Assembly (NCBI RefSeq): GCF_009900765.1
Contig: NZ_JAAABL010000036.1
Span: forward strand, 1 to 35,285
Length of the DNA: 35,285 bases
Direction of reading: 5' to 3'
DNA from: Rhodovarius lipocyclicus
GTDB taxonomy: Bacteria > Pseudomonadota > Alphaproteobacteria > Acetobacterales > Acetobacteraceae
Shown here: piece after piece, positions 15,806 through 35,285 of the stretch
Layout of the letters: every line of letters begins with the position of its first letter
How positions within the stretch are numbered: position 1 is the first letter of the stretch
Program-made: the position numbers and the translations under genes
The notes under the pieces: model-generated
The model's input: the letters and a program-made list of their open reading frames with translations, nothing else
The model's database searches: none
Told to the model about the DNA's origin: nothing

Positions 15806-17040
15806 GCCGCGCGCACGCGAAGCAGCAGCAGCGCCCCCAGCCCCAGCAGGCCCAGCACCACGGCCATCCCCGCCACCTGGCTGGCGAAGGCGGTGGTGGC
15901 CATGGCCAGCAGCGCCGGCCCCATGAACCCCGTGACCCGCCCGGACAGCGCGAACAGCCCGAACCAGGCCCCTGCCTCCTCAGGCGGTGCCAGCCGCGCC
16001 ATCAACGTGCGGCTGGCCGCCTGGGCCGGGCCGAAGAACACCCCCAACCCCGCCCCCAGCACCCAGAACAGGGTCTTGCTCTCCACCAGCAGCAGCCCCA
16101 GCCCGATCAGGATGATCGCCAGCAGGCTGCCCAGCACGGTGCGGCGGGAACCCAGCGCATCCTCCAGCCAGCCGCCCGCGAAGGCGCCGAGCCCGGCCGT
16201 GACGTTCAGCAGGATGCCGAACAGCAAAATCTCCTCGACCTGCATGCCGAAGCGCCCGGCGGCGTAGATGGCGCCGAAGGCGAACAGCGTGTTCAGCCCA
16301 TCGGTGTAGAACAGCCGCGCGGCCAGGAAGCGCGCCAGCACCGGCTCATGCGGCAGTTTGCGCAGCGTGGCCCGGATGGCGGCCAGCCCCTGCCGCACGG
16401 CCTGGGCCACAGGCGGGCGCACGGCCGGGTCGGGCACCGCCAGCAGCACGGGCCAGCCGAACAGCACGATCCAGCCCGCCACCAGCAGGGCGGTGGCGCG
16501 CACATGCTCGGCCGCCGCGCGGTCCAGCCCGAAGGGCGGCGGGCCGGGGCGCAGCAGCACCAGCAGGCACACCGCCAGGCACAGCAGCCCCCCCACATAC
16601 CCCATGCCCCAGCCCAGGCCGGAGACACGCCCCAGCTTCTCCACCGGCGCCACGCTGGGCAACATGGCGTTGTAGAACACCGTCCCCAGCTCGAACGCCA
16701 CCGTCGCCAGGCCGATCAGTACCAGGGCGGGCAGCGCATCGGCGGCGCGCGGATGCACGAACCAGATGCCGGCCGTGGCCACCGCCGTCAGCAGGGTGAA
16801 GATGGCCAACAGCGCGCGCCTGCGCCCGCCCGCATCGGCCACGGCGCCCAACACCGGGGAGAGCAGGCCGATGGACAGCCCCGCCAGCGCCTGCATCCAG
16901 CCCCACATGGCCTGGCCCGTCACCGGGTCCGGCGCGACGGCGGAGGTGAAATAGGTGGCGATGACGAAGGTGGAGACCACCGTCGGGAAGGCACTGTTGG
17001 CGAAATCATAGCCACACCAGGCCCAGGCCTTGAGGCGCAT
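15802..17040 (-). CDS. MFS transporter, UMF1 (Atg22-like) family
   Basis: A 412-residue membrane protein with about 12 helices. The N-terminal WCGYDFANSAFPTVVSTFV motif is the signature of the UMF1/Atg22-like branch of the major facilitator superfamily; fungal Atg22 exports amino acids from the vacuole, and bacterial members are uncharacterised exporters. The loop between helices 2 and 3 has GAVADAGGRRRALL, a standard MFS motif A. GAGAC precedes the ATG. The stop falls inside the 18-bp repeat at 15788-15805, so the C-terminus (LLLRVRAA) may be slightly changed from the ancestral one, though the length is normal for the family. Substrate unknown. Confidence 0.88.
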   Translation of the reverse strand: MRLKAWAWCGYDFANSAFPTVVSTFVIATYFTSAVAPDPVTGQAMWGWMQALAGLSIGLLSPVLGAVADAGGRRRALLAIFTLLTAVATAGIWFVHPRAADALPALVLIGLATVAFELGTVFYNAMLPSVAPVEKLGRVSGLGWGMGYVGGLLCLAVCLLVLLRPGPPPFGLDRAAAEHVRATALLVAGWIVLFGWPVLLAVPDPAVRPPVAQAVRQGLAAIRATLRKLPHEPVLARFLAARLFYTDGLNTLFAFGAIYAAGRFGMQVEEILLFGILLNVTAGLGAFAGGWLEDALGSRRTVLGSLLAIILIGLGLLLVESKTLFWVLGAGLGVFFGPAQAASRTLMARLAPPEEAGAWFGLFALSGRVTGFMGPALLAMATTAFASQVAGMAVVLGLLGLGALLLLRVRAA

Positions 17041-17059
17041 CGCGGTCTCCGTCTGTCAT

Positions 17060-17301
17060 GCCCCCGGGGGCTTTGCCCCCGAACCCCCACCGAGGGGCTC
17101 TGCCCCTCGGCTCCCCGCCAAAGGCCGAAAGGCCCTTGGAACCCAGGAGTTTGGCGCTTTACCTTGCCAGGTCAGGCGCCATTTTCATTATAAAAATCAA
17201 TGGGAAAAACCCTTCCAAGATCAGCGCCAAGCTGATCTAGGTCCAGGACCGAGCACGGTCCTGGCGGGGGTGTCGGGGGCGGAGCCCCTGACAGGCGCTC
17301 C
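17060..17301 (+). repeat. Composite intergenic repeat, copy A
   Basis: This fills the 265-bp gap between the transporter start and the glutamate dehydrogenase stop. In order it has a GC-rich stem (CGAGGGGC, TCT, GCCCCTCG at 17091-17109), a GGCC-GAAA-GGCC tetraloop hairpin near 17122, a GGCGCC box, an AT-rich core (TTTTCATTATAAAAATCAAT), a GATCAGC/GCTGATC hairpin, and AGGACCG-AGCA-CGGTCCT. The same order appears inverted at 28918-29147. It carries no reading frame of note. Confidence 0.8.
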
Positions 17302-17305
17302 CCCC

Positions 17306-20300
17306 TCAATGCAGCCCCGCCAAGGCCCGGGCCGCCACCGTCACGGCCGACAGGTCCGGCACGCGGCCGGCTTGTTCCACCAGCTTCGCCACGGCCTCGG
17401 CCGCCGCCGGCAGGGCGCCGCCGCGCAGCCCCTGCCCGGCCAGCCGTGCCTGTGCCGTGTCCAGGTCCGCCAACAAGGCCGCCCGCGCCCGGTTGCCGAA
17501 CTGGCCGGAGACCGGGGCCGCCTCCGCCGCCGCGCGCAGCGCCGCCAGATGGAACTGGCCCGCCACCGCGGCCCAGGCTTCGGCGGCGGCTTCGGGCGTG
17601 GCCCCCGTCTCCCGCGCCAGGCGCAGGATGGCCGGGGCGGCGCCCAGCAAGGGCAGCTCCACCAGCGGGGTGCCCGGGGGCAACAGCGCCGGCAGGCCAG
17701 GGCTCAGCGCCGCCAGCACATCGCCCAGCGGGCCGCCCTCGCTCAACATATGGCGGGCGGCCTGGGCATGCAGGGCGCGCAGGGTGGCCAGAGCGTCCAG
17801 CTTCGCGGGGCCGTGGGTCTTGTCGGCGGCGTCATAGGCCGCCTCCAGCCCCAGCAGCGTGTCGGCCAGCCAGGCGGCGCGCACGGCGGTGGCGGGGCTG
17901 GCTTCGGCGGTCAGGCGGCCGATGCCGGCGCAGCCGATGCGGTTGGCCACGCCGTTGGACAGCGCGGTCGCCACCAGGTCCCGCCGCAGGCGGTGGCGGG
18001 CGATGAAGGTGCCGAATTTCTCCCGCAAGGGCTTCGGGAAATAGGCGACCAGCAGGGGCAGCAGCGCCGGGTCGTCGGGCAGATCCGATTCCAGGATCGC
18101 CTCGTTCAGCCACAGCTTGGCGAAGGGCAGCAGGGCCGCCACCTCGGGGCGGGTCAGCCCTTCGCCGGCCGTGGCGCGGCGGGCCATGGCGGCTTCGTCC
18201 GGCAGGCCGGCGAGGGCGCGGTCCAGCAGCCCCACCTCCTCCAGCCGCGCCATCAGCGCGGCCTGGGCCGGCAGGGCGGCCGCGCCCTGCGCGACCTCCA
18301 GCGAGACCGCGAGCGATTGCAGCCCGTTGTCGCGCAGCACCAGCCCCGCGACCTCGTCCGTCATCTCCTTCAGCAGGTCGTCGCGCTGGCGGCGGGTCAG
18401 GGCGCCGCTGGCCTCGGCATCGGCCAGCAGGATCTTGATGTTCACCTCATGGTCGGAGGTCGAGACGCCCGCCGAATTGTCCAGCGCATCGGTGTTGATG
18501 CGGATGCCCTGGCGCGCGGTCTCGATGCGGCCGGCCTGGGTCACGCCCAGGTTCGCGCCCTCACCCACCACCCGCGCCCGGATCTCCCGCCCATCGACGC
18601 GGATGGCGTCATTGGCGCGGTCGCCCGCATCGGCCTGGGTTTCGGTGCTGGCTTTGATGTAGGTGCCGATGCCGCCGAAATACAGCAGGTCCACGTTCAG
18701 CTTCAGGATGGCGCGCATCACCGTGGCGGGCTCGACCTTCTCGGGCACGCCCAGCAGCGCCTGGGCCTCCGGCGACAGGGTGATGTGCTTGGCGGTGCGC
18801 GGGAACACGCCCCCGCCCGGGCTGATCAGCGCAGGGTCGTAGTCCGCCCAGGAGGAACGGGGCAGCGCGAACAGGCGCTGGCGCTCGGAGAAACTGGCTT
18901 CCAGCTCCGGGTTCGGGTCGATGAAGATGTGCCGGTGGTCGAAGGCCGCGACCAGCCGGGTCTTGCGCGAAATCAGCAGCCCGTTGCCGAACACGTCGCC
19001 CGACATGTCGCCCACGCCGGCCACGGTGAAGGGCTCGGCGAAGATGTCGTGGCCCAGCTCCTCGAAATGCCGCGCGATCATCACCCAGGCGCCGCGCGCC
19101 GTGATGCCCATCACCTTGTGGTCGTAGCCGACCGACCCGCCGGAGGCGAAGGCATCGCCCAGCCAGAACCCGTATTCGGCCGACAGCCCGTTGGCGATGT
19201 CGCTGAAGCTGGCCGTGCCCTTGTCGGCGGCGGCGACGATGTAGGGGTCGTCCCCGTCGCGGCGCACCACGCGCGGCGGCGGCAGCACGGTGGTGCCGTC
19301 CAGATTGTCCGTCACGTCCAGCATGCCGCGCACCAGGGTGCGGTAGCAGGCGATGCCCTCGGCCATGAAGGCCTCTCGGTCGCCGGCCGGGGGCGGGTGC
19401 TTCAGGATGAAGCCGCCCTTGGCCCCCGTCGGCACGATGACGACGTTCTTCAGCCGCTGCGCCTTCATCAGCCCCAGGATCTCGGTGCGGAAATCCTCCC
19501 GCCGGTCGGACCAGCGGATGCCGCCGCGCGCGACGGGCCCGGCCCGCAGGTGGCAGCCCTCCATGCGCGGGGAGTGCACGAAGATCTCGCGCCAGGGGCG
19601 CGGGCTCGGCATGTCGCCGGCGGCGGCACTTTCCACCTTGAAGGAGAGGTAGGGTTTATCCTGGAAGAAGTTGGTGCGGCGCATCGCGTCCAGCACGGTG
19701 CGCAGGCGGGACAGGATGCGGTCCGCATCCGGGTCGGCCACGCTGTCCAGCAGGGCGGTCCAGGCGTTGGCGATGCTGGTTTCGTCGGCCAACGCATCGG
19801 GGTTGAAGCGGGCGTGGAACAGCCGGACCAGCAATGCGGCCGCCTGGGGCGTCTCGGAGAGCACCTTCTCCACGCTGTCCTGCGCGAAGGGGAAGCCCAG
19901 CTGCTTCACCCAGCGGTACATGGCCCGCAGCAGCCAAGCCTCCCGCCAGTTCAGCCCGGCCAACAGCACCAGCCGGTTGAAGCCGTCCACCTCCGCCTGC
20001 TGGGCCAGCAGGGCTGAGAGGGTGTCGAGCACGGCGGGGAAGCGTCGCTCGTCCAGCTCCACCGGGGTTTCCAGCGTGAAGCCATGCAGCGCCACCGGGG
20101 CGGCATCGGCGGGCGTCAGGTGGTGCGGCACTTCCTCGATCGCGCGCAGGCCCATGGATTCGAACAGCGGCAGCACATCGGCCAGCGGCAGGGCACCGCC
20201 GGGGTTGGCCAGGCGCAATTGCAAGCGCCGCGCGCCGCCCGGGGCCGCCAGCAGCCGCGCCACCGGGCGGCTTTCGGCCAGCGCCTGTTCGGCCATGGCG

Positions 20301-21826
20301 ATGTCGGCGGCGGCGGTGGCCGCCGTTTCCGTGTCGTCATAGGCGGGCGGGAAGGCCCGGCCCCAGCGCGCCAGCAGCGGGGTGGCCAGGGCCTCCCCAT
20401 GGCTGGCGATCAGCGTGTCGGCCAGTTTCTCATGGAAGCCGCGCGCCATCTCGGCCACCAGCTTCTCCAGCGCCGCCGCGTCGGGGTGCACGGCGTGGGC
20501 GGGGTCGGTGGCGATGACGTAGTGCACCCGCGCCAGCGGGGAATCCCCCAGCGAGATGTAGAACACCGACAGCCGCCCGCCATGCGCGCGGGCCAGCATC
20601 TCACCCACCCGGCTGCGCAGGCTGGTGTCGAAATTCTCGCGCGGGAGCCAGACGATGGCCGAGACATAGCGCCCGAACGGGTCGGGCCGCAGCACCAGCG
20701 CGGGGGCGGGTGTCAGCGTGATGGACAGCGCCCGGCGGGCGGCGGCCAGGATCTCGGCCTCGCTGGCCTGGAACAGCTCGTCGCGCGGCCAGGTGTCCAG
20801 GATGTTGCGCAGGGCGCGGCCGTCATGGCTGGTGGCGGTGGCGCCCGCGGCCTCGATGATGCGGTTCACCTTGCTGCCCAGCAGCGGGATGCTGCGCGGG
20901 TTGCGGTTGTAGGCGGCGGCGGCGAACAGCCCCAGGAACAGCCGCACGCCCGCGCCATCGGGCAGCGGCGTGATGATGACATCGGCGTGCTGGGGCCGGT
21001 GCACCGTGCTGCGCATATTGGCCTTCAGCACCGCGACCGGCGGGGGCGCGTGCAGGGCGGCAACCACGGTGGGCGGCACCGCCGAAAGGTCCGCCAGCGC
21101 GTCGAACACCGGCCGCCCGGCATCGGCCAGCAGGCCCAGCCCGGCCTCGGCCCGGAAGCCGCCACCATCGGTCAGCAGGCGGCGATGGCCCAGCAGCACG
21201 AAATTGTCCTCGGCCAGCCAGGTGAGGAATTCGCGGGCCTCGCCCTCAGCCTCGGCCTCAGCCCGGCGCAGCTCGGCCAGCATGGCCGGGAAATCCTCCA
21301 CCGAGCGGCGGACATCGGCCAGGGTCGCGGCCACCAGCGCCTCGGTCGCGGCGGGGTCGGGTTCGGCGCCCGCCAGGGCGATGCGCATCACGCTTTCCCG
21401 CAAGGGACCCGTGGCGGCATCGGCCAGCGTGCCGTCATCCGTGCGCGTCACGTCCAGCACGGGGTGCAGCACCTGGCGCGGCGTGCGGCCCTGGCGCGTC
21501 AGCACGCCCAGCACGCTGTCCACCAGGAAGGGCATGTCGTCGGTCACCACCTCCACCACCGGGTGGTGGAAGCGCCCGGCCGGCAGGGCGCGGATGCGCG
21601 ACTGGCCCGGCAGCCGCCGCTCCATCAGCTGGAACAGGGAGGCCGCCATGGCGGCGAGCGATTCGGGGGGCGTGGCCGCCAGCTCGGCGGCCGGCACCGC
21701 CTCCGTCAGCGCGGGCAGCAGCTGGGCGGCGGTGGCGGGCAGCCCATGCGGCAGTGCCGCGACGGCGAGGCGCAATACCTCCTGCCGCAGCGGTTCGGCC
21801 GAAGCCTGTGGCTGGATGTCGGGCAT
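17306..21826 (-). CDS. NAD-specific glutamate dehydrogenase, large type
   Basis: A 1,506-residue NAD-glutamate dehydrogenase of the large bacterial class, which converts glutamate to 2-oxoglutarate and ammonia. The N-terminal half carries ACT-like regulatory regions (for example VEVVTDDMPFLVDSVLGVL). The catalytic part begins around residue 750 with ARGGIRWSDRREDFRTEI and PTGAKGGFILK, followed by the GVGDMSGDVFGNG nucleotide-binding region. The start at 21826 is supported by GGAGG upstream and gives the usual N-terminus for the class. It stands alone on its strand. The neighbours do not show how it is regulated, but such enzymes supply carbon from amino acids and suit the catabolic setting. 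Confidence 0.95.
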   Translation of the reverse strand: MPDIQPQASAEPLRQEVLRLAVAALPHGLPATAAQLLPALTEAVPAAELAATPPESLAAMAASLFQLMERRLPGQSRIRALPAGRFHHPVVEVVTDDMPFLVDSVLGVLTRQGRTPRQVLHPVLDVTRTDDGTLADAATGPLRESVMRIALAGAEPDPAATEALVAATLADVRRSVEDFPAMLAELRRAEAEAEGEAREFLTWLAEDNFVLLGHRRLLTDGGGFRAEAGLGLLADAGRPVFDALADLSAVPPTVVAALHAPPPVAVLKANMRSTVHRPQHADVIITPLPDGAGVRLFLGLFAAAAYNRNPRSIPLLGSKVNRIIEAAGATATSHDGRALRNILDTWPRDELFQASEAEILAAARRALSITLTPAPALVLRPDPFGRYVSAIVWLPRENFDTSLRSRVGEMLARAHGGRLSVFYISLGDSPLARVHYVIATDPAHAVHPDAAALEKLVAEMARGFHEKLADTLIASHGEALATPLLARWGRAFPPAYDDTETAATAAADIAMAEQALAESRPVARLLAAPGGARRLQLRLANPGGALPLADVLPLFESMGLRAIEEVPHHLTPADAAPVALHGFTLETPVELDERRFPAVLDTLSALLAQQAEVDGFNRLVLLAGLNWREAWLLRAMYRWVKQLGFPFAQDSVEKVLSETPQAAALLVRLFHARFNPDALADETSIANAWTALLDSVADPDADRILSRLRTVLDAMRRTNFFQDKPYLSFKVESAAAGDMPSPRPWREIFVHSPRMEGCHLRAGPVARGGIRWSDRREDFRTEILGLMKAQRLKNVVIVPTGAKGGFILKHPPPAGDREAFMAEGIACYRTLVRGMLDVTDNLDGTTVLPPPRVVRRDGDDPYIVAAADKGTASFSDIANGLSAEYGFWLGDAFASGGSVGYDHKVMGITARGAWVMIARHFEELGHDIFAEPFTVAGVGDMSGDVFGNGLLISRKTRLVAAFDHRHIFIDPNPELEASFSERQRLFALPRSSWADYDPALISPGGGVFPRTAKHITLSPEAQALLGVPEKVEPATVMRAILKLNVDLLYFGGIGTYIKASTETQADAGDRANDAIRVDGREIRARVVGEGANLGVTQAGRIETARQGIRINTDALDNSAGVSTSDHEVNIKILLADAEASGALTRRQRDDLLKEMTDEVAGLVLRDNGLQSLAVSLEVAQGAAALPAQAALMARLEEVGLLDRALAGLPDEAAMARRATAGEGLTRPEVAALLPFAKLWLNEAILESDLPDDPALLPLLVAYFPKPLREKFGTFIARHRLRRDLVATALSNGVANRIGCAGIGRLTAEASPATAVRAAWLADTLLGLEAAYDAADKTHGPAKLDALATLRALHAQAARHMLSEGGPLGDVLAALSPGLPALLPPGTPLVELPLLGAAPAILRLARETGATPEAAAEAWAAVAGQFHLAALRAAAEAAPVSGQFGNRARAALLADLDTAQARLAGQGLRGGALPAAAEAVAKLVEQAGRVPDLSAVTVAARALAGLH

Positions 21827-22164
21827 CGTGGCCCTCCTGCGTTTCCGGGTCTCAGTTTGGCAGCCTGGTGGTGAAGAACAAGAAAAGCGCGAGCGATTCA
21901 TTTGTGATTCACGCGCCGCGCGCAGATTGCCATGGCCGGAGCAGAAAGCGCCGGCGGCCATGCAGGAACCGGGGCAATACGCCACCGCTTGCACCACCGG
22001 GGTGCGGGGTCCATGCGGCCAGTCAGACAACCCAGGCGCGCGCTCACACAACCGTGTCGTGCAATGTCGCCTGCGTCATGAGCAAATCCAGACGTTTCTG
22101 GCTTTGAATGGCGACCATGAGCGGATCAATAAGTCTGTCCACCGGAACCGATCGAGGTGGGTGG
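21827..22164. other. Intergenic gap of about 340 bp
   Basis: The gap lies between the divergent glutamate dehydrogenase and the small membrane protein gene. No gene is visible. It is less GC-rich than its surroundings near 21870-21920, which is likely where the promoter of the dehydrogenase gene lies. A small hairpin (CCAGA-CGTT-TCTGG near 22089) is too weak to call. An ATG at 22108 would extend the next gene, but it has no ribosome site. Confidence 0.5.
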
Positions 22165-22518
22165 ATGTTCGAACAGATGCAGCGGCGGCTGAACGGTGTC
22201 AGGGCGCGCTTCGCCCCGGCCAAGCCCGCGGATGTCACGCTTCCCAGCCATCCGCGCCTGGGCGGCGGCCTGGCATCGCCCCCGCCGGAAGCCACCGCGC
22301 CCGGACCGGGCATCCCGCTGCAACACGATGTGCTGGCCGGGCTGCTGGCGGAGGATGCGCGCAACAGCCGCCGCGAATGGCGCCTGGGCGTCATAGCGGC
22401 CGGCTGCTGGTGCGCGGCGCTGTTCACCGGTGTCGCCATCCCGGCCCTGGCCGTGGCCTTCACCCTGGCCCCCGTCGTGGCGCTGGCCATGGAACTGCTG
22501 ACGCGCGACGAAACCTGA
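22165..22518 (+). CDS. Small membrane protein, hypothetical
   Basis: A 117-residue protein with no recognised family. The N-terminal half is Pro/Ala-rich and soluble; the C-terminal third has one or two membrane helices (GVIAAGCWCAALFTG, then ALAVAFTLAPVVALAME). The start at 22165 is chosen because GAGGTGG lies just upstream; an in-frame ATG at 22108 lacks a site. It is followed after 12 bp by the JmjC-type oxygenase gene on the same strand and is probably co-transcribed with it. Confidence 0.6.
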   Translation: MFEQMQRRLNGVRARFAPAKPADVTLPSHPRLGGGLASPPPEATAPGPGIPLQHDVLAGLLAEDARNSRREWRLGVIAAGCWCAALFTGVAIPALAVAFTLAPVVALAMELLTRDET

Positions 22519-22530
22519 TATAGGCGGGGC

Positions 22531-23745
22531 ATGGACCTCGCCCAGCTTCTCGCCCCGGTCACGCCGGAGCAGTTCTTCGCCGAATACTACGACAAGCAGC
22601 CCCTGCACGTGAAAGGCGGGGCCGCGAAATTCGCCTCCGTCCTAGGCTGGCGGCAGATCAACCGGCTGCTGGACATGACCCATATGTGGTCGTCCCATTC
22701 GCTGAAGATGTATGAGGACGGGGTGGCCGTGCCGCCCGAGCAGTATTGCGTCTCAGCCCTGTCGCGCGACAACCAGCAGGTCATGCAGCCGGTCGCCGGC
22801 AAGGTGGCCGAATGGATGAGGAAGGGCGCGAGCCTCGTCCTCAATGACGTGGACAGCCTGACGCCGGGGCTCAACGCCGTCTCCCGCGCGCTGGAAGGCG
22901 CGCTGCTGGGGAAGGCGCAGGGCAACGTCTATATCTCCTGGCAGTCGCACAAGGCCTTCCCGGCCCATTACGACACCCATGATGTCTGGGCCGTGCAGGT
23001 GGAGGGCGAGAAGACCTGGAATGTGTGGGAAGGCCGCGCCGAATGGCCGATCAGCCACCCCATCTTCCGTGGCGAGGGCCAGGCGCACCACGAACAGGCC
23101 AAGGGCCGCCTGCGGGAGAAGGTGCTGCTGAAGGCGGGCGACCTGCTCTATCTGCCGCGCGGCTGGTATCACGATGCGCTGGCCGAGGCGCCTTCCTCCG
23201 TCCACATCGCCTATGGCGTGCATGCGGCGCTCGGCATGGACGTGATGAACATCCTGCTGGAGCGCGTGCTGTATGAGCCGCTGTTCCGCCAGCCCCTGCC
23301 GCGCCAGGACGGCACCGCCAGCGCCAAATTCGCCCTGACCCAGCGCGTGGGCCAGCTGGGCGCGCGCCTGGCGGAGCTGGTGAAGGACCCCGGCGTGATC
23401 AACGTGATCGAGGGCTACGTCCACAACCACCGCTTCAACCGGGGCGACAACGACCTGCTGGCCACGCGCGGCCTGGCGGCCCCGGCCGCCCCCGCTGGCG
23501 GTGAGGACGGCGCCAGCTTCCGCCCGGTGGCCGAAGGCGCCAAGCCCGTGCGGCGCGGCGCCGACTGGGTGCTGAAGGGCGCGGGTTCCCCCCTGCCGCT
23601 GACGCCGCCCGAGGCCGAGGCCGCCGCCTGGTTGCTCGCCCGCCCGGATGTGACGGAGGCCGAGTTGGGCCGCGCCCATCCCGGCGTGGATGCGGCGGGG
23701 TTGCTGCGGCGACTCGTGGGCGCTGGTATCCTGGTCACCATATGA
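22531..23745 (+). CDS. JmjC/cupin-4 oxygenase, ribosomal-oxygenase-like
   Basis: A 404-residue protein with a cupin-4 (JmjC-like) domain. Iron ligands are visible as His-146 and Asp-148 in AHYDTHDVW and His-214 in LPRGWYHDA; the KTWNVWEG stretch follows as in 2-oxoglutarate oxygenases of the YcfD/RoxA group. Those enzymes hydroxylate ribosomal proteins (an Arg in L16 for YcfD). After residue 300 a winged-helix-like C-terminal region (ADWVLKG...) fits the same architecture. Whether a ribosomal protein is the target here is inference. Its TGA overlaps the next gene's ATG by 4 bp. Confidence 0.85.
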   Translation: MDLAQLLAPVTPEQFFAEYYDKQPLHVKGGAAKFASVLGWRQINRLLDMTHMWSSHSLKMYEDGVAVPPEQYCVSALSRDNQQVMQPVAGKVAEWMRKGASLVLNDVDSLTPGLNAVSRALEGALLGKAQGNVYISWQSHKAFPAHYDTHDVWAVQVEGEKTWNVWEGRAEWPISHPIFRGEGQAHHEQAKGRLREKVLLKAGDLLYLPRGWYHDALAEAPSSVHIAYGVHAALGMDVMNILLERVLYEPLFRQPLPRQDGTASAKFALTQRVGQLGARLAELVKDPGVINVIEGYVHNHRFNRGDNDLLATRGLAAPAAPAGGEDGASFRPVAEGAKPVRRGADWVLKGAGSPLPLTPPEAEAAAWLLARPDVTEAELGRAHPGVDAAGLLRRLVGAGILVTI

Positions 23746-24161
23746 TCATCCTCCTCGCCCTGCCGCTGCTGCTGCTCGCCGCCACCCCCGCCTGGGCCCA
23801 ACCCCGGGAATTCAACTGCGTCGGCGCGGAGCAGCTGGAGGACGACAATTTCGCCATCCCCTTCGCCGCCCGGGCCGCCACCCCCGGCGAGGAAGCGCGC
23901 AACGCCATCGCCGCCGCCGTGGAACTGGCCAAGCGCGAGGAACGCCGCAACATCTGCGTGCTGGGCCATGCCCTGGCGACGGAGGGCGGGGCGCAGACCG
24001 GATCGCGCCTGGCGGCGCGGCGGGCGCGGGCGGTGGCCGATGCGCTGTCGGCCGCGGGCATCGAGCGCGACCGGGTGCGGGCGGAGGCCCGGGTGGTGGG
24101 CTTCACCCGCAGCACCGCCGCCCGCCCGGCACGCGGGGCGACCATTATTATTTTGCCGTGA
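23742..24161 (+). CDS. Secreted OmpA-like protein
   Basis: A 139-residue protein with a signal peptide (LLALPLLLLAATPAWAQ) and a C-terminal half resembling a shortened OmpA-type peptidoglycan-binding domain (CVLGHALATEG, then LAARRARAVADALSAAGIERDRV). The OmpA fold normally has an Asp and an Arg that bind diaminopimelate; the Arg-rich RRARAVADAL helix is present, but the Asp is not clear. It starts inside the stop codon of the oxygenase gene (ATGA), so the two are translationally linked although one is cytoplasmic and one exported. Confidence 0.65.
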   Translation: MIILLALPLLLLAATPAWAQPREFNCVGAEQLEDDNFAIPFAARAATPGEEARNAIAAAVELAKREERRNICVLGHALATEGGAQTGSRLAARRARAVADALSAAGIERDRVRAEARVVGFTRSTAARPARGATIIILP

Positions 24162-24279
24162 CCACGGCGGGCATCATCCTGCCGTGACTTGGCGCGCATG
24201 ATCCAAACGGGCGCTTGCGCGTCGCGGCACCCGTGCCCATCCTCCCCAAAGAGAACGCCACAAGGAAAGCCGAGCGCGG

Positions 24280-25452
24280 ATGCTGAAATCCCTCTCCCTC
24301 TCCGCTCTGATCGTCGCGGGCCTGATGGCCGGCGCCGGGGCGCAGAACCTGAAGCCGCCGGCGGGCGGGGCGCCGCGCGGCACGCAGCAGCCCCAGCAGG
24401 AGCGCGTGCTGAACCTGGTGAACCGCAGCGACACCGTGCTGCGGCAGCTCTATGTCTTCCGACAGGGCGCACCCGAGGGGCCGGACCGGCTGGGCGCCGA
24501 CATGGTGCCGGCCGGGGCCAGCTATCCCATCCGCCTGGGCCGGGTGGCCGATTGCCGCCTGCTGGTCCGCGCCATCTGGCAGGATGAGAGCGAGGAGACC
24601 CGCGCCATCGATGTCTGCGCCGAGCGGCAGCTGGTGCTGACCGACGAGGGCCGCCGCGACGTGCAGGTGGTGAACGACACCGACGCCACGCTGATGCAGG
24701 TGTTCCTGATGCCGCGCGGCGGCAACGACCCCGGCCCCGACCGGCTGGGGGCGGCCATGGTGCCGGCCGGCGAGAATTTCCGCATCCGCCTGCGCGGCTT
24801 CGCCGCCTGCGAGGTGACGGTGCGCGCCGCCTTCGCCGGCCTGCCCGCCGAAACCCGTGACGCGAACATCTGCGAGCAGCCGCGCCTGGCCTTCGGCGAC
24901 CCGTCGATCCCGCTGCGGGAACTGCAGGTGGTCAACCGCAGCTCCGTCGTCTTGCAGCAGCTGTACGCCCTGCCGCTGGCCCAGGGTGCCACGCCGCCCG
25001 CCGCCCCGAATTGGGGGCCGGACCGTCTGGGGGCCTCTGTGATCGGGGCCGGGCGGGATTTTCCCATCCGCATCCGCAGCGGCGAATGCCGGGTGGTGCT
25101 GCGCGCCGTCTTCGCCAACCGGCGGGAGGAGATCCGCGACAACGTGAATATCTGCACCCCGCAGCCCGTGGTGTTCCAGGGCAGCCGGCGCCTGGCGATC
25201 GGCAATCTGTATGAGCGGCCGATCACCGGCATCTACCTGTCGCCCGTCGAGGAACGGGACTGGGGCAACAACCAGCTTTCGGCCCCCATCAGCCAGAACG
25301 GCACCGCCGAGCTGGGCATGGAAGGCGGCTGCCGCGCCGATCTGCGCATCGTGTTCGACAATGAAGCGGCCGAGGAGCTGCGCAACTTCGACATGTGCCG
25401 CAACCCCGCCATCACCCTGCGGCCCGGCTGGGTGACGGAGGCTCGGCAGTGA
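24280..25452 (+). CDS. Secreted protein of four Cys-paired tandem repeats, uncharacterised
   Basis: A 390-residue protein with a signal peptide (residues 1-21, ending GAGAQ) and four tandem domains of about 80-90 residues (roughly 43-124, 127-210, 214-303, 306-385). Each has a VVNRS-like strand, a LYxxP-like segment, then in the first three a GPDRLGA motif, an AG.xFxIR strand, and a Cys pair: 92/113, 177/198, 270/292 and 351/373, always 21-22 residues apart. The repeats suggest beta domains, each with one disulfide. The fourth is the most divergent. I do not recognise the family. Its TGA overlaps the GTG of the TetR-like gene, implying co-transcription. Confidence 0.8.
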   Translation: MLKSLSLSALIVAGLMAGAGAQNLKPPAGGAPRGTQQPQQERVLNLVNRSDTVLRQLYVFRQGAPEGPDRLGADMVPAGASYPIRLGRVADCRLLVRAIWQDESEETRAIDVCAERQLVLTDEGRRDVQVVNDTDATLMQVFLMPRGGNDPGPDRLGAAMVPAGENFRIRLRGFAACEVTVRAAFAGLPAETRDANICEQPRLAFGDPSIPLRELQVVNRSSVVLQQLYALPLAQGATPPAAPNWGPDRLGASVIGAGRDFPIRIRSGECRVVLRAVFANRREEIRDNVNICTPQPVVFQGSRRLAIGNLYERPITGIYLSPVEERDWGNNQLSAPISQNGTAELGMEGGCRADLRIVFDNEAAEELRNFDMCRNPAITLRPGWVTEARQ

Positions 25453-26060
25453 GCGAATCCCTGCCCCGCGCCCTGGATGGGCTTTGGTCCGCCGTGGCGG
25501 AGCATGGCTGGCACGGCGCCACCCTGGCCCGCATCGCACAGGCCGCGAACCTGTCCCTGGGGGACCTGCGCCGCCTGGCGCCGGGGCCGTTGGGGCTGCT
25601 GGCCCTGCACGGCGCCGCGACCGACCAGACCGTGCTGGACGGCACCGTGCCCACCGAGGGCGAAAGCACCCGCGACCGGCTGTTCGACGTGCTGATGCGC
25701 CGGCTGGACACGATGCAGCCGCACCGCGCGGGGCTGCTGCGCCTGCTGAAGGACCTGCCGCTGAACCCGCCCCTGGCCCTGTGGCTGGGCTGCGAGACCC
25801 AGCGCAGCATGGGCTGGATGCTGGAAGCGGCCGGGGTGGATTCGCGCGGCGCACTCGGCCGGCTGCGGGCCAAGGCCCTGGCGGGGGTGTGGCTCTATAC
25901 CGTGCACGCCTGGGCCAAGGACGAGAGCCCGGACATGAGCGCCACCATGGCCGCGCTGGACAAGGCGCTGGACCGGCTGGAACAGGCGGCGAAAAGCCTG
26001 GACCCCTTCGCGCGCAAGGCCGCGAAGCCGGAAGAGGCGAAGGCGGAAGAGGCGGATTGA
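25449..26060 (+). CDS. TetR/COQ9-like protein
   Basis: A 203-residue protein with a TetR-type helix-turn-helix at about residues 20-50 (ATLARIAQAANLSLGDLRRL) and a long helical C-terminal part (RDRLFDVLMRRLDTMQPHRAGLLRLL) of the kind shared by TetR regulators and bacterial COQ9-like proteins. The C-terminus is Lys/Glu/Ala-rich. The GTG start overlaps the previous TGA. It could be a regulator or, as COQ9 does in mitochondria, a lipid-binding helper in quinone synthesis; a regulator is the safer call. A hairpin begins on its stop codon. Confidence 0.75.
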   Translation: MSESLPRALDGLWSAVAEHGWHGATLARIAQAANLSLGDLRRLAPGPLGLLALHGAATDQTVLDGTVPTEGESTRDRLFDVLMRRLDTMQPHRAGLLRLLKDLPLNPPLALWLGCETQRSMGWMLEAAGVDSRGALGRLRAKALAGVWLYTVHAWAKDESPDMSATMAALDKALDRLEQAAKSLDPFARKAAKPEEAKAEEAD

Positions 26061-26077
26061 GGGGGCGCCGCCCCCTC
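26059..26077 (+). terminator. GC hairpin on the stop of the TetR-like gene
   Basis: GAGGGGGC, loop GCC, GCCCCCTC is a perfect 8-bp stem starting inside the stop codon. There is no T-run, so it may act with Rho or as part of the repeat copy C that starts here. Confidence 0.5.
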
Positions 26078-26216
26078 AAACTCCCCCGGCAGGAGCCGAA
26101 AGGCCCCTGCACCCCAGGAGTTTGGTGCCCGTCCTGGGAAGGTGTTTCTTATTGAATTTTATCATGAAAATGGCGCCCCGCCTGCCAAGGTAAGGCGCCA
26201 AACTCATGGGTTCAAA
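26059..26216. repeat. Composite intergenic repeat, copy C left part
   Basis: A rearranged copy of the family at 17060 and 28918. The first part (stem, GCCGAAAGGC tetraloop, CCCAGGAGTTTGG) runs in the orientation of copy A. The second part (TTATTGAATTTTATCATGAAAATGGCGCC, given here only as position 26149-26177, then GGCGCCAAACTCATGGGTT) runs in the orientation of copy B. So the same half-unit occurs twice, facing inward. It ends abruptly at the IS110 boundary and resumes at about 27403. Confidence 0.7.
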
Positions 26217-26240
26217 GCAACCGTCTTTCCGCGCGCCTGC

Positions 26241-27206
26241 TCAGCTGGTCTGTCTCTCCTGCTTCCACGCGCATTTGTTTCTCAGCATGGCATTGAGAGC
26301 GACGAGCAGCTTGCGCATACACGCCCCTAGCGCGACCTTGTGCGGCTTGCCCCGGGCGCGCAACGCCTCATAGGCGGGCTTGATCACCGGGTTGCATCGG
26401 CTGGCCACCAGTGTGGCCATGTACAGGCAGCAGCGCACCGGGGCCCGCCCGCCCGACATCCGCCGGCTGCCCTGCCGCTTGCCGCTGTCGTCGGCGAAGG
26501 GGGCCACCCCCACCAGGGCTGCGATCTCCTGCCGCGAGGCCCGCCCCAGCTCCGGCAATTCCGCCAGCAGGGTCGCAGCCGTCGCGGGGCCCACGCCCGG
26601 CACCGAGCGCATCAGCGCCGCGGGCCTCGACAACGCCTCATGGGCTGCGACATGCGCCTCGATGGCAGCCTCCACCTCGCGCAGGCAGTCCTTGAGATGG
26701 GCGATGCGCCGCGCCGCCAAGGCGATCAGGGTGGGCAGGCGCAGCGGGCGGGCCTGCTGGCGGGCGGCCACCAGCTCGGCCGAGAGCTGGCGGCGCAGCA
26801 GCACCATCTCGGCCAGCGCCTCGCGCAGCGGGTCGGGCTGCACGGCCGGGCTGTCGAAGGTGGCGGCGCAGCGGGCGATGACCAAGGCGTCGATGCGATC
26901 GGTCTTGGCGCGCTGGCCGGCGGTGCGGGCGAATTGCCGGACCCTGCCGGCATCCAGCAGGCGGGCCTGCAGGCCTGCGGTGCTCAGGGTTCGCAGCACC
27001 TCGCGCTCGTATCCGCCCGAGGCCTCGCAGGCGGCCTCTGTCACGCCATGGCGGGCCATCCAGGCCAGCAGGGCCGCGTGGCCTGGCGGGTCCTGGGCGA
27101 AGCGGGCCGCCTGGCCCTCTGGCCAGAGGGCCGCATCGAGCCAGTCCTTGGCCACATCGATGCCCACGACGCGCCGAACAGGCGGCGCAATGACAGTATC
27201 AGACAT
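26241..27206 (-). CDS. IS110-family transposase (DEDD recombinase)
   Basis: A 321-residue transposase with the N-terminal RuvC-like DEDD domain: Asp-17 in VGIDVAKDW, Glu-61 in ACEASGGYE, Asp-103 and Asp-106 in KTDRIDA. The C-terminal Tnp_20 domain shows SVPGVGPATAATLLAELPELG-type helix-hairpin-helix sequence (split here as SVPGVGPATAAT and LLAELPELG), then LVGVAPFADDSGKRQG and a Ser-rich stretch where the nucleophile lies. All key residues are present and the length is normal, so the element may be active. The ATG at 27206 is preceded by GGGAGGGAGAGG. Confidence 0.93.
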   Translation of the reverse strand: MSDTVIAPPVRRVVGIDVAKDWLDAALWPEGQAARFAQDPPGHAALLAWMARHGVTEAACEASGGYEREVLRTLSTAGLQARLLDAGRVRQFARTAGQRAKTDRIDALVIARCAATFDSPAVQPDPLREALAEMVLLRRQLSAELVAARQQARPLRLPTLIALAARRIAHLKDCLREVEAAIEAHVAAHEALSRPAALMRSVPGVGPATAATLLAELPELGRASRQEIAALVGVAPFADDSGKRQGSRRMSGGRAPVRCCLYMATLVASRCNPVIKPAYEALRARGKPHKVALGACMRKLLVALNAMLRNKCAWKQERQTS

Positions 27207-27402
27207 CAGCCTCTCCCTCCCTTGCACGTGCGGGGTCCCGGCAAGAGCTGGGCCCCGGCCAACCGTTCGGGCTACAAAGAGGACGGATCCGGGCCTTGCT
27301 TTGAAACGGTGTCATGCACCGGGGGTCGAACGGCCTCGAGATCGCGTCACCCGGGCGGGCAGGCCCGCCCGGGTGACCCATTCTTGCACCTTTCGTAAGA
27401 CA
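27207..27402 (-). ncRNA. Candidate bridge RNA of the IS110 element
   Basis: A non-coding leader of about 196 nt upstream of the transposase, the place where IS110-group elements encode the bridge RNA that pairs with target and donor DNA. It contains a perfect 15-bp GC stem with a 2-nt loop (27346-27360 and 27363-27377) and a CGGTG/CACCG hairpin near 27310. On the transcript strand UUCAAAGCAA (27305-27296) is complementary to the element/flank junction at 26211-26220, and ACGGUUG (27266-27260) is identical to the element's right end at 26224-26218. Guide assignment is inference. Confidence 0.5.
27346..27377. repeat. 15-bp perfect inverted repeat in IS110 leader
   Basis: GTCACCCGGGCGGGC, loop AG, then the exact reverse complement GCCCGCCCGGGTGAC. 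It is the most stable hairpin in the window. It could be a structural stem of the bridge RNA or a block to read-in transcription. Confidence 0.85.
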
Positions 27403-27478
27403 CAAGGGTTGCTACAACCCTTTGCGGGGATGCAAGGGGCAGCGCCCTTTGCCGGGGGTCCAGGGGGCGGAGCCCCTT
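27403..27478. repeat. Composite intergenic repeat, copy C right part
   Basis: This continues copy C beyond the IS110 element: a AAGGGTTG-CTA-CAACCCTT hairpin in place of the tetraloop stem, then GCAAGGGGC-AGC-GCCCTTTGC (one mismatched pair) and GGGGGTCCAGGGGGCGGAG up to the stop of the C26 hydrolase gene. The stem has the same position as the 17091 and 29100 stems in copies A and B. Confidence 0.6.
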
Positions 27479-27482
27479 GGCC

Positions 27483-28262
27483 TTACTCCGCCGCCTGTAA
27501 TTTCCGCCCTTCGCGTTCTTCCATCCGGGCCTGGCAGGCTTCGGCGAAGACCTGGAAGATCGACAGGCTCAGTTCGTCGCGTTCCCAGTCGTATTCCGGG
27601 TGCCATTGCACGCCCATGGCGAAGGCGCGCGCCCCTTCCACCCGCACGGCTTCCACCGTGCCGTCGGGGGCCCAGGCTTCCGCCACCAGCCCTGGCGCCA
27701 GGCGCTGGACGCCCTGGTTGTGCAGGGAGTTCACGGCGATGCTCTCGCGGCCTGACAGGCGGGCCAGCAGGGTGTTGGGCTTCAGGCGCACATTGTGGGC
27801 CTTGCCGGTGCGCACCAGCGGGATGTGCTGGTCGGACGGCGTGGAGTGGTCCATGCGGCCGTCCAGATCCTGGATACGCTGGTCCAGGCTGCCGCCGAGC
27901 GCCACATTCAGTTCCTGCATGCCGCGGCAGATGGCCAGCAGCGGGATGCCGTTGTCGATGGCGGCGCGGATCAGCGGCAGGGTGGTGGCGTCGCGCTGAT
28001 GGTCCTCGGGCGTGCCTTCCAGATGCGGCGGGCCGCCATAGTATTCGGGCCAGACGTTGGATCGGCTGCCGGTCATGATGATGCCGTCCATGCGCGCCAC
28101 GATCTCGTTCACGCATTCCGGGCCCGCGCAGGGGACCAGGGCCGGGATGCCGCCCACCGGGCCCATCACGACCTTCACATAGGAATCCGAAGCTGCGTGG
28201 TTTGGCGTGTTGAAGATGCCAAAGGGCTTTACGCAGCAGGAAATGCCGATCAACGGCCGCAT
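27483..28262 (-). CDS. Class I glutamine amidotransferase-like hydrolase (peptidase C26, PuuD-like)
   Basis: A 259-residue protein of the gamma-glutamyl-GABA hydrolase group. The nucleophile Cys-112 lies in AICRGMQELNV, and the catalytic His-221 and Glu-223 lie in VQWHPEYDWE. MTGSRSNVWPEYYGG matches the family's substrate region. PuuD releases GABA from gamma-glutamyl-GABA in putrescine breakdown; here no other puu gene is present, so another gamma-glutamyl compound is possible. It is cytoplasmic. It is divergent from the GlcG/HbpS gene with 182 bp between starts. Its stop abuts the repeat copy C. Confidence 0.9.
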   Translation of the reverse strand: MRPLIGISCCVKPFGIFNTPNHAASDSYVKVVMGPVGGIPALVPCAGPECVNEIVARMDGIIMTGSRSNVWPEYYGGPPHLEGTPEDHQRDATTLPLIRAAIDNGIPLLAICRGMQELNVALGGSLDQRIQDLDGRMDHSTPSDQHIPLVRTGKAHNVRLKPNTLLARLSGRESIAVNSLHNQGVQRLAPGLVAEAWAPDGTVEAVRVEGARAFAMGVQWHPEYDWERDELSLSIFQVFAEACQARMEEREGRKLQAAE

Positions 28263-28315
28263 GATGCCTGTCCAGTCAGCGACATGTCAGATGTGTGAAG
28301 TGTCGCCTCGGGCCG

Positions 28316-28331
28316 TGGCACAATCAAGGCA
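28316..28331 (+). promoter_or_regulatory. Weak sigma-54-like promoter candidate
   Basis: TGGCAC, then AATCAAG, then GCA gives the GG-N10-GC spacing of a sigma-54 promoter. The -24 half is perfect and the -12 half (AGGCA instead of TTGCA) is poor. It lies about 115 bp before the GlcG/HbpS gene. A GACATGTC palindrome sits nearby at 28281-28288. Confidence 0.22.
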
Positions 28332-28444
28332 TGGATTCGCGGGCACCGCCCCGCGCGCGGTGCATCGCTTGCACGGCGGCCCACACACTGGACAGTTTGG
28401 CCACGCCCCGCCACAGAACAAGGCAGCAAACCCGGAGAAACCCC

Positions 28445-28912
28445 ATGCCCCAGCCCGCCCACCCCGCCGCCATCAACGGCCTGACCCTGGCCCAGGCCGA
28501 GACCATCGCCGCCGCGGCCCTCGCCAAGGGGCATGAGGCGGGCTTCCTGCCGCTGACCGTGGTGGTGCTGGACGCCGGCGGGCAGATCAAGGTGGTGAAG
28601 CGTGAGGATGGCTGCTCCATCCTTCGCCCCGAAGTGGCGCTGGGCAAGGCGTTCGGCGCCATGGCCATGGGTTTCGGCACGCGGGAACTGGCGCGCCGCG
28701 CCCAGGCGGTGCCGGGCTTCACCAACGCGCTGTCCGACCTGACGGGCGGCCGCGCCGTGCCGGTGCCGGGCGGCGTGCTGATCCGCGACGCGAACAATGT
28801 GCTGCTGGGCGCGGTGGGCATCTCGGGCGACACCTCGCCGAACGATGAGATCTGCTGCATCGCGGGCATCGAGGCGGCAGGGTTGCAGGCGGATAACGGC
28901 GACCCGGCCTGA
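28445..28912 (+). CDS. GlcG/HbpS family protein
   Basis: A 155-residue protein of the GlcG/HbpS (DUF336) family. Typical features are LTVVVLDAGGQIKVVKREDG, then ALGKAFGAMAMGFGTREL, GGRAVPVPGGVLIRD and the ending GAVGISGDTSPNDE. Members bind haem or act beside glycolate and other oxidation systems; many are cytoplasmic proteins with no known reaction. GGAGAAA precedes the ATG. It is alone on its strand, and a strong GC stem follows its stop. The role in this genome is not shown by context. Confidence 0.88.
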   Translation: MPQPAHPAAINGLTLAQAETIAAAALAKGHEAGFLPLTVVVLDAGGQIKVVKREDGCSILRPEVALGKAFGAMAMGFGTRELARRAQAVPGFTNALSDLTGGRAVPVPGGVLIRDANNVLLGAVGISGDTSPNDEICCIAGIEAAGLQADNGDPA

Positions 28913-28917
28913 GGGGG

Positions 28918-29147
28918 ACCAGGCCAGGGGGCGCTGCCCCCTGGACCCCCCGCCAGGACCGTGCTCGGTCCTGGACCTAGATCAGTTTGGCGCTGATCCG
29001 GGAAACGTTTTTCCCATTGAATTTCATCATGAAAATGGCGCCCGCTTACCAGGAAGAAGCGCCAATTCCTGGGTTCCAAGGGCCTTTCGGCCTTTGGCGG
29101 GTTCCAAGGGCAGAGCCCTTGGTGGGGGTTCGGCGGCGAAGCCCCTG
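28918..29147 (-). repeat. Composite intergenic repeat, copy B
   Basis: The inverted counterpart of copy A, with the same order of parts when read on the minus strand. The AGGACCG-AGCA-CGGTCCT stem and the GGCC-GAAA-GGCC hairpin are unchanged, while the large stem reads CCAAGGGC-TCT-GCCCTTGG instead of CGAGGGGC-TCT-GCCCCTCG; both sides changed together. It fills the gap between the convergent GlcG/HbpS and CoA-transferase genes. Confidence 0.8.
28924..28944 (+). terminator. GC hairpin after GlcG/HbpS gene
   Basis: CCAGGGGGC, loop GCT, GCCCCCTGG is a perfect 9-bp stem 12 bp after the stop codon. It is part of repeat copy B and has no T-run. It could end transcription from either convergent gene. 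Confidence 0.45.
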
Positions 29148-29148
29148 A

Positions 29149-30501
29149 TCACGCCTCCACCGCCCCCAGCTCCCCAGCCGCCAGCGCCCAGCCCATGGGC
29201 GCGCCCGCGATCGCGGCGGGCGGGGCGGCGCGGCGTGCCGGCCCCCAGGCGGTGTGTTCGATCCCGGGCGCCAGGTCGGCCTCGGCCAGCCCCGGCAGCG
29301 GCGCGGTGCTGGCCTCGCCCCTGTGGTCCATCAGCCAGAACGCGGTCCGCGCCAGCGACAGGCGCGTGACGCTGCCCAGCCCATCCCGCCGCCTGGCGAT
29401 CAGCGCGCGCAGCACCGCCGCCGCCATCAGGTAACCCGTGGCGTGGTCCAGCGCCTGCACCGGCAGGGGCGTGGGGCGGTCCGCCTGTTTCCAGCGCATC
29501 CCGGCCTCGGCGATGCCCGTGCTCATCTGCACCAGGCTGTCGAAGCCGCGCCGCTGCCGCCATGGCCCGCTGTGGCCATAGGCGTTCAGCGACACGTCGA
29601 TCAGGCCGGGGCGCAGCGCCTGGCGCTCGGCGGGGCCATAGCCCAGCCCCTCCAGCGCGCCGGCGCGATAGCCATGCACCAGCACATCGGCGCGGGACAG
29701 CAGGGCCTCGAAGCGCGCGCGGCCGGCGGGGTCGCGCAGGTCCAGCCGGGCGCAGCGCTTGCCCAGCGTGACCTCGGGCACCACGCCCGGCTCGCCCCAG
29801 CCGGGCGGGTCGATGCGCAGCACATCGGCGCCATAGCCCGCGAGGAACCGGGTGGCGACCGGGCCCGCCAGCACGCGCGTCAGGTCCAGCACGCGCAGGC
29901 CCGTGAGGGGGCGGCCAGGGGTTGGCTCCCAGCCGGGCGCGGCATCGGCCGTGCCGGGGCGGATGTCGAAGATCGGCTCCGCGCGCACCGCCTGGCCCTG
30001 CGGGTGGGCGCGCCAGGCCTCGGGCGTGTGCATGGCGGCGGCGCAGCCCTTGGCCTCCACCACCGCCTGTTCCAGGGCCTGGGCGGGCCAGCGGGCGACG
30101 GCCTGGGCCACGGCCTCCCGCGTGTCGGCGCAGCCCAGCACGGCCAGCGCAGCCGCGTGGTGGTGCGGGGCGTTGGTGTGCAGCCTGATCCAACCATCGG
30201 CGGCGGCGTAGTCGCCCGCGATGGGGTCCCAGGCGGCCGGCAGGGTCCAGCCCTGGGGCACCAGCGTCCAGTTGAACCACAATGAGGCCAGGCGCGTATC
30301 CACCACCACGCGCGGCGCCCCGCCGGTCAGCTCCGACACCGCCAGGCAGGCCGCGCCGATCGAGGCCACCGCCAGCGGGGTGACCGGAAAGTAGGAGGGC
30401 AGCCGGGCATCGCCGCTGATCTCCAGCCGGCCGGGCGCGCTGTCGGGCAGGCCCAGCGCCTGCCAGGCCTCCGTGAGGATCGGGAGGATTTCCGGGGTCA
30501 T
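29149..30501 (-). CDS. Family III CoA-transferase with permuted domain order
   Basis: A 450-residue CaiB/BaiF-type protein. The usual N-terminal motif (TGLRVLDLTRVLAGPVATRF) is at residues 200-219 instead of near residue 5, followed by GADVLRI, the VLVHGYRAGALEGLGYG stretch and a likely catalytic Asp-352 in QALDHATGYLMAAAV. Residues 90-170 (DPIAGDYAAADGWIRLHTN through EAWRAHPQGQ) resemble the part that normally comes second. So the order of the two halves looks circularly permuted. Such enzymes move CoA between carboxylic acids. It is divergent from the citrate-synthase-like gene, 45 bp apart, suggesting joint control and a shared pathway. Confidence 0.82.
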   Translation of the reverse strand: MTPEILPILTEAWQALGLPDSAPGRLEISGDARLPSYFPVTPLAVASIGAACLAVSELTGGAPRVVVDTRLASLWFNWTLVPQGWTLPAAWDPIAGDYAAADGWIRLHTNAPHHHAAALAVLGCADTREAVAQAVARWPAQALEQAVVEAKGCAAAMHTPEAWRAHPQGQAVRAEPIFDIRPGTADAAPGWEPTPGRPLTGLRVLDLTRVLAGPVATRFLAGYGADVLRIDPPGWGEPGVVPEVTLGKRCARLDLRDPAGRARFEALLSRADVLVHGYRAGALEGLGYGPAERQALRPGLIDVSLNAYGHSGPWRQRRGFDSLVQMSTGIAEAGMRWKQADRPTPLPVQALDHATGYLMAAAVLRALIARRRDGLGSVTRLSLARTAFWLMDHRGEASTAPLPGLAEADLAPGIEHTAWGPARRAAPPAAIAGAPMGWALAAGELGAVEA

Positions 30502-30546
30502 GGGCGTTCTCCTTGACGGGGCGCCCAGGAAACGACCAGAACCGCG

Positions 30547-31668: not shown

Positions 31669-31677
31669 TCGGGCGGG

Positions 31678-32199: not shown

Positions 32200-32233
32200 G
32201 GCCGGGCTTCTAGCGAAGGAAGGCGCGTGGGGA

Positions 32234-34590: not shown

Positions 34591-34632
34591 GCACGCTGCG
34601 TAGCATGCCGCCCCGGCGCCGGGCGAGGGGGG

Positions 34633-35067: not shown

Positions 35068-35168
35068 AGCGGGTATCCTTCCGTCGGGCGGCGCCGTAGC
35101 GCGGCGTGGCCGGCAACGGCATCGTCAATTTCCAGCAAGCCCGCTCGGTATTCCGCAAAGGGTCTCGA

Positions 35169-35285
35169 CTAGGAGAGCGGGTTATCCCGGCAGAGTTTGA
35201 GCAGGAGGCGAGTAAGGTTCCTGGCTCTGTTGTTGTACCTGAACTCGCACTCCTTGAGGTGCAAGTGGAAGGTGGCGCGGCTGAG
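35169..35285 (-). CDS. IS1595-family transposase, C-terminal fragment cut by window edge
   Basis: The last 38 residues of a transposase read from the edge inward: TFHLHLKECEFRYNNR, then RNLTRLLLKLCRDNPLS and a TAG stop at 35169. This matches the C-terminal end of ISXO2/IS1595 DDE transposases (FHLYLKECEFRFN-type sequence). The rest lies outside the window, so integrity cannot be judged. The end of the element is probably within about 35100-35168, but no inverted repeat could be matched without its other end. Confidence 0.75.
   Translation of the reverse strand, partial: LSRATFHLHLKECEFRYNNRARNLTRLLLKLCRDNPLS

Follow-up and report, generated by a model that had tools for sequence, protein, structure and literature searches.

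A large family of modular palindromic repeats at gene ends in Rhodovarius lipocyclicus

Repetitive extragenic palindromic (REP) sequences and bacterial interspersed mosaic elements (BIMEs) are described, in passages of two reports, as high-copy palindromes that form inverted pairs, lie 3' of genes and between convergent open reading frames, show frequent GT pairing and are targets of insertion sequences (IS) (PMC3733652, PMC1525189). Miniature inverted-repeat transposable elements (MITEs) such as ERIC, Correia/NEMIS and RUP appear in part of a further report as small, non-coding, mostly intergenic sequences with inverted ends, and CIR appear there as alphaproteobacterial intergenic repeats with two inverted arms and a linker (PMC2229807). 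Here we followed up a composite repeat in a 35,285-nucleotide stretch of Rhodovarius lipocyclicus (the window), which is contig 36 of a draft genome of 4.59 Mb in 111 contigs. The repeat belongs to a family of ~230-base elements with interchangeable hairpins, present in more than 100 copies genome-wide and nearly always directly 3' of genes. A preliminary description of the window had reported two copies with the same module order; both copies and their shared order are borne out by the sequence, and the family is real but larger than described, with a third window copy, split by an IS110-type sequence, and at least 136 places in the genome. What is new is a large repeat family in Acetobacteraceae without an Rfam match here: no match in the window reached the gathering score, and ten matches around copy 1 (E up to 10) all fell far below it. 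We found no published description of the family in the open-access literature. Statistics were taken on 90 copies, 70 of the at least 136 own places and 20 of the at least 74 in the congener G005, drawn mostly from the top of the score lists of the covariance model R1 introduced below.

With REP and BIME, as far as those passages portray them, the family shares high copy number, inverted pairs, gene-end position, GT pairing and IS insertion. It differs in unit size, ~230 bp and four to six hairpins against 20-40 bp for the REP/REPIN unit, and in having no recognised fixed GTAG/CGTC tag: no such tag was seen by eye at hairpin bases in the alignments, and the tetramers occur somewhere in 65/90 copies, a pooled regular-expression count that is uninformative. 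REPINs with a RAYT were rejected because no Y1 transposase was found; PF01797 was matched in 0/9 genus genomes and 0/24 family genomes (genus included), in a search that matched 5/14 controls and 5/40 genomes overall. Lichenicola cladoniae is an acetobacter relative. CGTC-tagged REPs were reported, in a passage of one survey, to be missing from Acetobacteraceae (PMC3733652), and a passage of a later survey gives 1,369 REPs in L. cladoniae (PMC12306157). The likeness to MITEs, so far as the cited part describes them, lies in small size, lack of coding capacity, mostly intergenic position, inverted ends and presence or absence between relatives; the present elements differ in that their ends are ragged and modular, with no clear target-site duplication and no parent insertion sequence found. 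Like CIR in that account, they are alphaproteobacterial intergenic repeats with two inverted arms and a linker, but they are about twice the ~110 bp CIR length, and CIR were rejected on the rarity of GANTC, seen in only 6/90 copies. The family can also be likened, by description and not by sequence, to a further mosaic of palindromes in alphaproteobacteria. This is RIME, the Rhizobium intergenic mosaic elements, which are palindrome mosaics in this class.

Each copy is an imperfect palindrome in which two inverted hairpin halves flank a core. A half-element consists of two to three tandem hairpins linked by C- or G-runs, and the core is usually AT-rich. Copy 1 (17060-17301, plus strand; sequence, BLAST and R1, which matched the middle part at 17114-17268 with 184.5 bits) reads on its strand as outer hairpin, C-run, hairpin 2, CCCCGCC, hairpin 3, core, hairpin 4, GGCGGGG and hairpin 5. 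Its left outer hairpin, GGGGGC-TTT-GCCCCC, lies at 17066-17080, followed by hairpin 2 (CCGAGGGGC/GCCCCTCGG; 17090-17110; sequence, fold and best-stem search), hairpin 3 with a GAAA loop and an A.C mismatch on this strand that is G.U on the other (17118-17139), the AT-rich core TTTTCATTATAAAAATCAA (17140-17242; sequence and alignment), hairpin 4 (CCAGGACCG/CGGTCCTGG; 17243-17264; sequence, RNAalifold and best-stem search) and hairpin 5 (GTCGGGGGC/GCCCCTGAC, with one G.T; 17272-17292; sequence and best-stem search). Folded as RNA, copy 1 gave -149.9 kcal/mol, compared with -98.7 (standard deviation 5.28) for shuffles. Copy 2 (28918-29147, minus strand; sequence and R1) lies between convergent HbpS-like and CoA-transferase genes and is absent in G005; sequence and best-stem search placed its hairpin 2 (CCAAGGGC/GCCCTTGG) at 29104-29122, hairpin 3 at 29076-29097, hairpin 4 at 28953-28974 and hairpin 5 (CCAGGGGGC/GCCCCCTGG) at 28924-28944. 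Both the two-sided change in the hairpin 2 stem, from CCGAGGGGC/GCCCCTCGG to CCAAGGGC/GCCCTTGG, and the GGCC-GAAA-GGCC hairpin kept in the two copies are thus present as first noticed. Because the right half mirrors the left, copies align with one another even when unoriented. A right outer hairpin is present in some copies only; where both are present, the outer hairpins with their linkers are by eye reverse complements, giving terminal inverted repeats. Extra or missing modules occur in L009, L025, L026 and L129, and identical hairpin modules recur in different copies and, mirrored, in both halves. On own contig C38 (L209 12595-14162), a DUF2252 gene is bracketed by two oppositely oriented copies that have an additional hairpin module, GTGGGGCTTCGCCCCAC, in common.

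With copy 1 as query, BLAST found at least 57 matches in R. lipocyclicus, having scored 40 of 244 candidates; the figure includes fragments or opposite strands of single places. A search of the genome and its relatives with a covariance model, as the preliminary description had proposed, was then run with R1, which covers the middle part of the element and was built from 26 own copies, all of the AT-rich-core class. It returned at least 150 own matches among 3100 candidates, 14 of them on the opposite strand of another, leaving at least 136 distinct places; the best 100 of these at least 150 matches all had E <= 1.5e-20. At least 75 matches (at least 74 places) were found in G005. At E <= 0.001, eight of the nine genus genomes were matched, with at least 75 matches each in R. 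lipocyclicus and G005, while six others had 8 to 24 weaker matches apiece; outside the genus, two of 15 other Acetobacteraceae genera were matched (15 and 1 matches), and there was no match in 16 genomes of the class. In a wider family sample at E <= 1e-10, with stricter filters and 10 candidates scored per genome, R1 matched 5/299 genomes, namely R. lipocyclicus, G005, G007 and one in each of two other genera. An exact 28-base stretch of hairpin 3 was found in 18 stretches from named Acetobacteraceae and uncultured relatives; R1 matched 18/18 of them, at 35 to 54 bits except for a G005 record at 100.1 bits. Hence the modules have a wider distribution than the full composite. Among the matches listed, copies are unevenly spread in a comparison of contigs C1 and C2 with C14, C20, C21 and C38: two lie on the 556-kb contig C1, against three or four within individual 20-kb stretches of small contigs.

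The position of the copies is strongly skewed towards gene ends. Gene context was called with a crude codon model, and 8/90 copies were dropped, seven without a flank and L009 for its low coding score. The remaining 82 copies lie between 46 convergent, 35 tandem and 1 divergent gene pairs, against 63 convergent, 256 tandem and 62 divergent pairs (n=381) in 435 kb of background, so that, as for REP and BIME, the elements stand behind genes and rarely between divergent ones. On 149/173 flank sides, by hand count, no more than 60 bases separate the nearest coding stretch from the approximate edge of the element. Both window copies first described do sit at gene ends, copy 2 filling the gap between two convergent stops and copy 1 lying downstream of a glutamate dehydrogenase gene and upstream of an MFS gene.

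Thirteen own sites were compared with G005, using the window part 22000-35285 and the own 20-kb stretches L184, L208, L210 and L212. Six are empty in G005 (copy 2, C4:153118, C21:31000, C14:8180, C14:17653 and C14:23307), four lie at synteny junctions (copy 3, C2:58922, C21:39325 and C21:48390), two are occupied in both species, and at one, C2:43107, G005 carries 2.9 kb of different DNA without an R1 match. The empty sites speak against a fixed location. In G005 the stop codons of the HbpS-like and CoA-transferase genes overlap at the copy 2 site, as do the stops at C4:153118. Thirteen synteny junctions were seen, with an own copy at four and an own or G005 copy at at least six, in a count covering part of the G005 sides. 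Where the window has copy 1, the dehydrogenase and MFS genes of G008 follow each other without a gap, and G001 shows ~150 bases without a copy; G005 and others carry different neighbours.

Stems remain paired while their sequences change. We took the best stem in each of four windows per copy, penalising G.T and A.C equally, and obtained at least 8 pairs in 88/90 copies for hairpin 3, 89/90 for hairpin 4, 76/90 for hairpin 2 and 85/90 for hairpin 5. In the outer register, 99.5% (hairpin 3), 99.9% (hairpin 4), 99.4% (hairpin 2) and 98.7% (hairpin 5) of cells were paired, and shuffled 3' partners paired less (83.6%, 85.3%, 82.7% and 66.5%, respectively). Cells here are not independent events: picking the best stem biases towards pairing, and kinship and the swapping of blocks both raise the counts. 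Many distinct stems occur at each position, the hairpin 4 inner stems comprising ACCG/CGGT, GCCG/CGGT, GGCC/GGCT, AAAC/GTTT, ACAC/GTGT and AGCC/GGCT, and modules swap within and between halves across the 90 copies and two species. RNAalifold on the 26 nearest copies found only 3/34 consensus pairs changed on both sides, with hairpins 3 and 4 nearly invariant; distant copies were added because these close copies vary too little for a covariation test. Pooled alignments A3 and A4 mix strands and were therefore left out of the counts. The selection on a fold originally read from two copies is partly supported, by the generality of paired changes and by strand-specific mismatches over 90 copies, but finds little in the nearest 26.

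Read outward from the core, mismatches were G.T in 152 cases and A.C in 9, or 45:9 over distinct hairpins; the ratios by hairpin were 50:3 (hairpin 3), 54:0 (hairpin 4), 12:4 (hairpin 2) and 36:2 (hairpin 5). Because the outward sense is the same in both halves, the bias falls on opposite strands of the element. This G.T bias points either to folding of a single strand, whether DNA or RNA, or to mutation biased by strand. In hairpin 3 the GAAA loop, which had been offered as a GNRA clue to RNA, stands on the inward strand with the A.C mismatch, and the outward strand, where that pair is G.U, has the loop TTTC (UUUC), which removes the clue. The outward strand runs antisense to the adjacent gene's mRNA, a point against a simple hairpin at the 3' end of that gene.

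Copy presence differs between two species, copies lie 3' of genes, and stems are paired while modules differ. We consider it moderately likely that the repeats are a REP-, BIME- and MITE-like family of small, non-coding, mobile and recombining mosaic palindromes, with hairpins under selection for single-strand folding. New copies would land at many places and survive at gene ends, since promoters or genes would be broken by insertion elsewhere. Dispersed inverted copies may recombine with one another, shuffling modules and rearranging the chromosome, and use of the folded single strand of each half, outward from the core, would maintain the hairpins. This strand would most likely act as DNA with a putative enzyme during movement and less likely as RNA. 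It seems unlikely that the family represents a new class of mobile element in which the halves are recognised as folded single-stranded DNA by a recombinase other than Y1/RAYT, the hairpin modules being exchangeable recognition parts that are swapped while the fold is kept.

Several observations weigh against a mobile, strand-folding family. In a rough hand count of separate alleles, the bias shrinks to 8 G.T to 3 A.C, which is not significant (p 0.23); kinship of copies means fewer paired-change and G.T events than the counts show, and a paired stem can travel as one block in a module swap. In five other congeners with readable downstream DNA, the HbpS-like gene stands next to different genes and lacks a copy, so that copy 2 may have been gained or lost. 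The six empty sites show no clear target-site duplication, with one 7-base candidate (C14:17653) and flanks too diverged, and no transposase was found with element ends between five close copy pairs. A composite transposon was rejected, 8/9 genes called between these pairs having been scanned and none being a transposase. In addition, C4:140944 and C4:150383 are occupied in both R. lipocyclicus and G005, and at L008/L147, outside the 13 sites, the same convergent genes flank a copy in both species, inverted and with other modules; selection for a hairpin device at 3' ends would also account for such repeated use of one place. The copies at C4:140944 (L114/L145) have the same orientation and differ at 1/22 positions in hairpin 2, 0/22 in hairpin 3, 0/21 in hairpin 4 and 0/21 in hairpin 5, while the core differs at 20/102 and the flanks at 36/496 and 22/497. 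The neutral decayed duplicates considered in the preliminary description do not match this pair, in which each hairpin has 0-1 changes; copying from other copies could also explain the pattern.

The elements might instead be a host device at RNA 3' ends, a possibility that we regard as doubtful. In it, the hairpins would serve transcripts as bidirectional terminators or as stabilisers of 3' ends, and copies would be retained where helpful. The strong 3'-end position, the paired stem changes, the G.T bias and the hairpins of L114/L145, more conserved than the core, would all suit such a device. The window copies, in contrast, have no T-tracts; 16500-30000 holds two terminator-like sites against 4.9 expected, a weak one inside copy 2, and a scan found a terminator-like core in 0/90 copies, chosen with a model of the AT-rich-core class. 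A second core class is under-represented among these copies because R1 was built on AT-rich-core copies. It emerged among 19 lower-scoring copies, four of which have one long hairpin instead of the AT-rich core, framed by the same half-elements: L256 1183-1303 and L212 14383-14502 (both own), in which an A-run leads into the hairpin and a T-run comes after it, resembling bidirectional intrinsic terminators, and L188 1508-1661 (own) and L263 374-524 (G005). L212:14383, a weak R1 match, and L263 mark C4:150383, where both species have the same convergent genes, keep the hairpin frames with different modules and have a long-hairpin core of unrelated sequence. The second core class and the occupancy of this site in both species raise the RNA device slightly, and together with the repeated occupancy of three places the class speaks for a 3' role in some copies. 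Against the RNA device, the element at C21:31000 has a canonical terminator ahead of it, which is also present in the empty G005 site, 6/13 sites are empty, and the 3' RNA of the adjacent gene would itself carry A.C, the G.T strand being antisense to its mRNA. For the bidirectional terminator proposed at the outset, terminator-like cores exist in L256 and L212:14383 but not in the window copies or the 90, so that it would apply to no more than a minority of copies.

An outward transcription unit, with a promoter in the core and the right half as a structured small RNA, is very improbable. A sigma-70-like match (9/12) occurs on the element's plus strand in 43/70 own copies, against 9/70 for the opposite strand and a shuffle rate of 4.6%, and the G.T bias suits an RNA read outward; yet copies share ancestry, so that 43 matches are not 43 events, G005 has only 7/20, mostly with other hexamers (other strand 4/20), the left half has the same bias without an equal promoter, and the core is the fastest-changing part of L114/L145. 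Palindromes can undergo arm-to-arm correction, and BIME hairpins may bind gyrase or relieve supercoils. A DNA-level palindrome of that kind, without a folded-strand function, in which template-switch correction and recombination give the covariation and which may bind gyrase or relieve supercoils, is distinctly unlikely: modules do occur as blocks in both halves and position between convergent genes agrees with it, but arm-to-arm correction does not predict outward G.T far above A.C in both halves, barring strand-biased mutation. The consensus of IHF was found in 0/90 copies.

Copy 3 of the window, on the minus strand, is split within hairpin 3 by an IS110-type sequence, as its missing left part (27404-27480; outer hairpin, hairpin 2 and most of hairpin 3) was found beyond an IS110-family transposase gene (26241-27167). 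The insertion, about 1187 bases on the minus strand, would span 26217-27403, ends that follow from the expected course of hairpin 3. The right part (26057-26216) holds the rest of hairpin 3, the core, hairpin 4 (26110-26089) and hairpin 5 (26079-26057), which overlaps the stop of a plus-strand gene ending at 26060; R1 matched 26085-26235 on the minus strand, with hairpin 3 broken. The left part is also what appeared as a solo half in the window. Standalone halves were rejected, since those listed in a structural scan of ~555 kb mostly belong to full copies; the scan lists parts of full copies as halves because it permits G.T and not A.C. IS110 elements select sites via a guide RNA, and the insertion in copy 3 adjoins the sequence AACC-CT-TTG. 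At least three other repeated IS-like sequences have ends abutting copies, two kinds in outer or end hairpin loops and one in the AT-rich core (L003, L009/L249, L010, L011, L019, L250, L251; L007, L030; L254, L260, L262), and many contigs with such ends terminate at that point.

The strand-specific G.T bias in both halves provides a handle on which strand folds. The many copies, together with the empty and the shared sites, make an old question testable, namely whether palindromes 3' of genes owe their persistence to the cell's transcripts or to their own movement.

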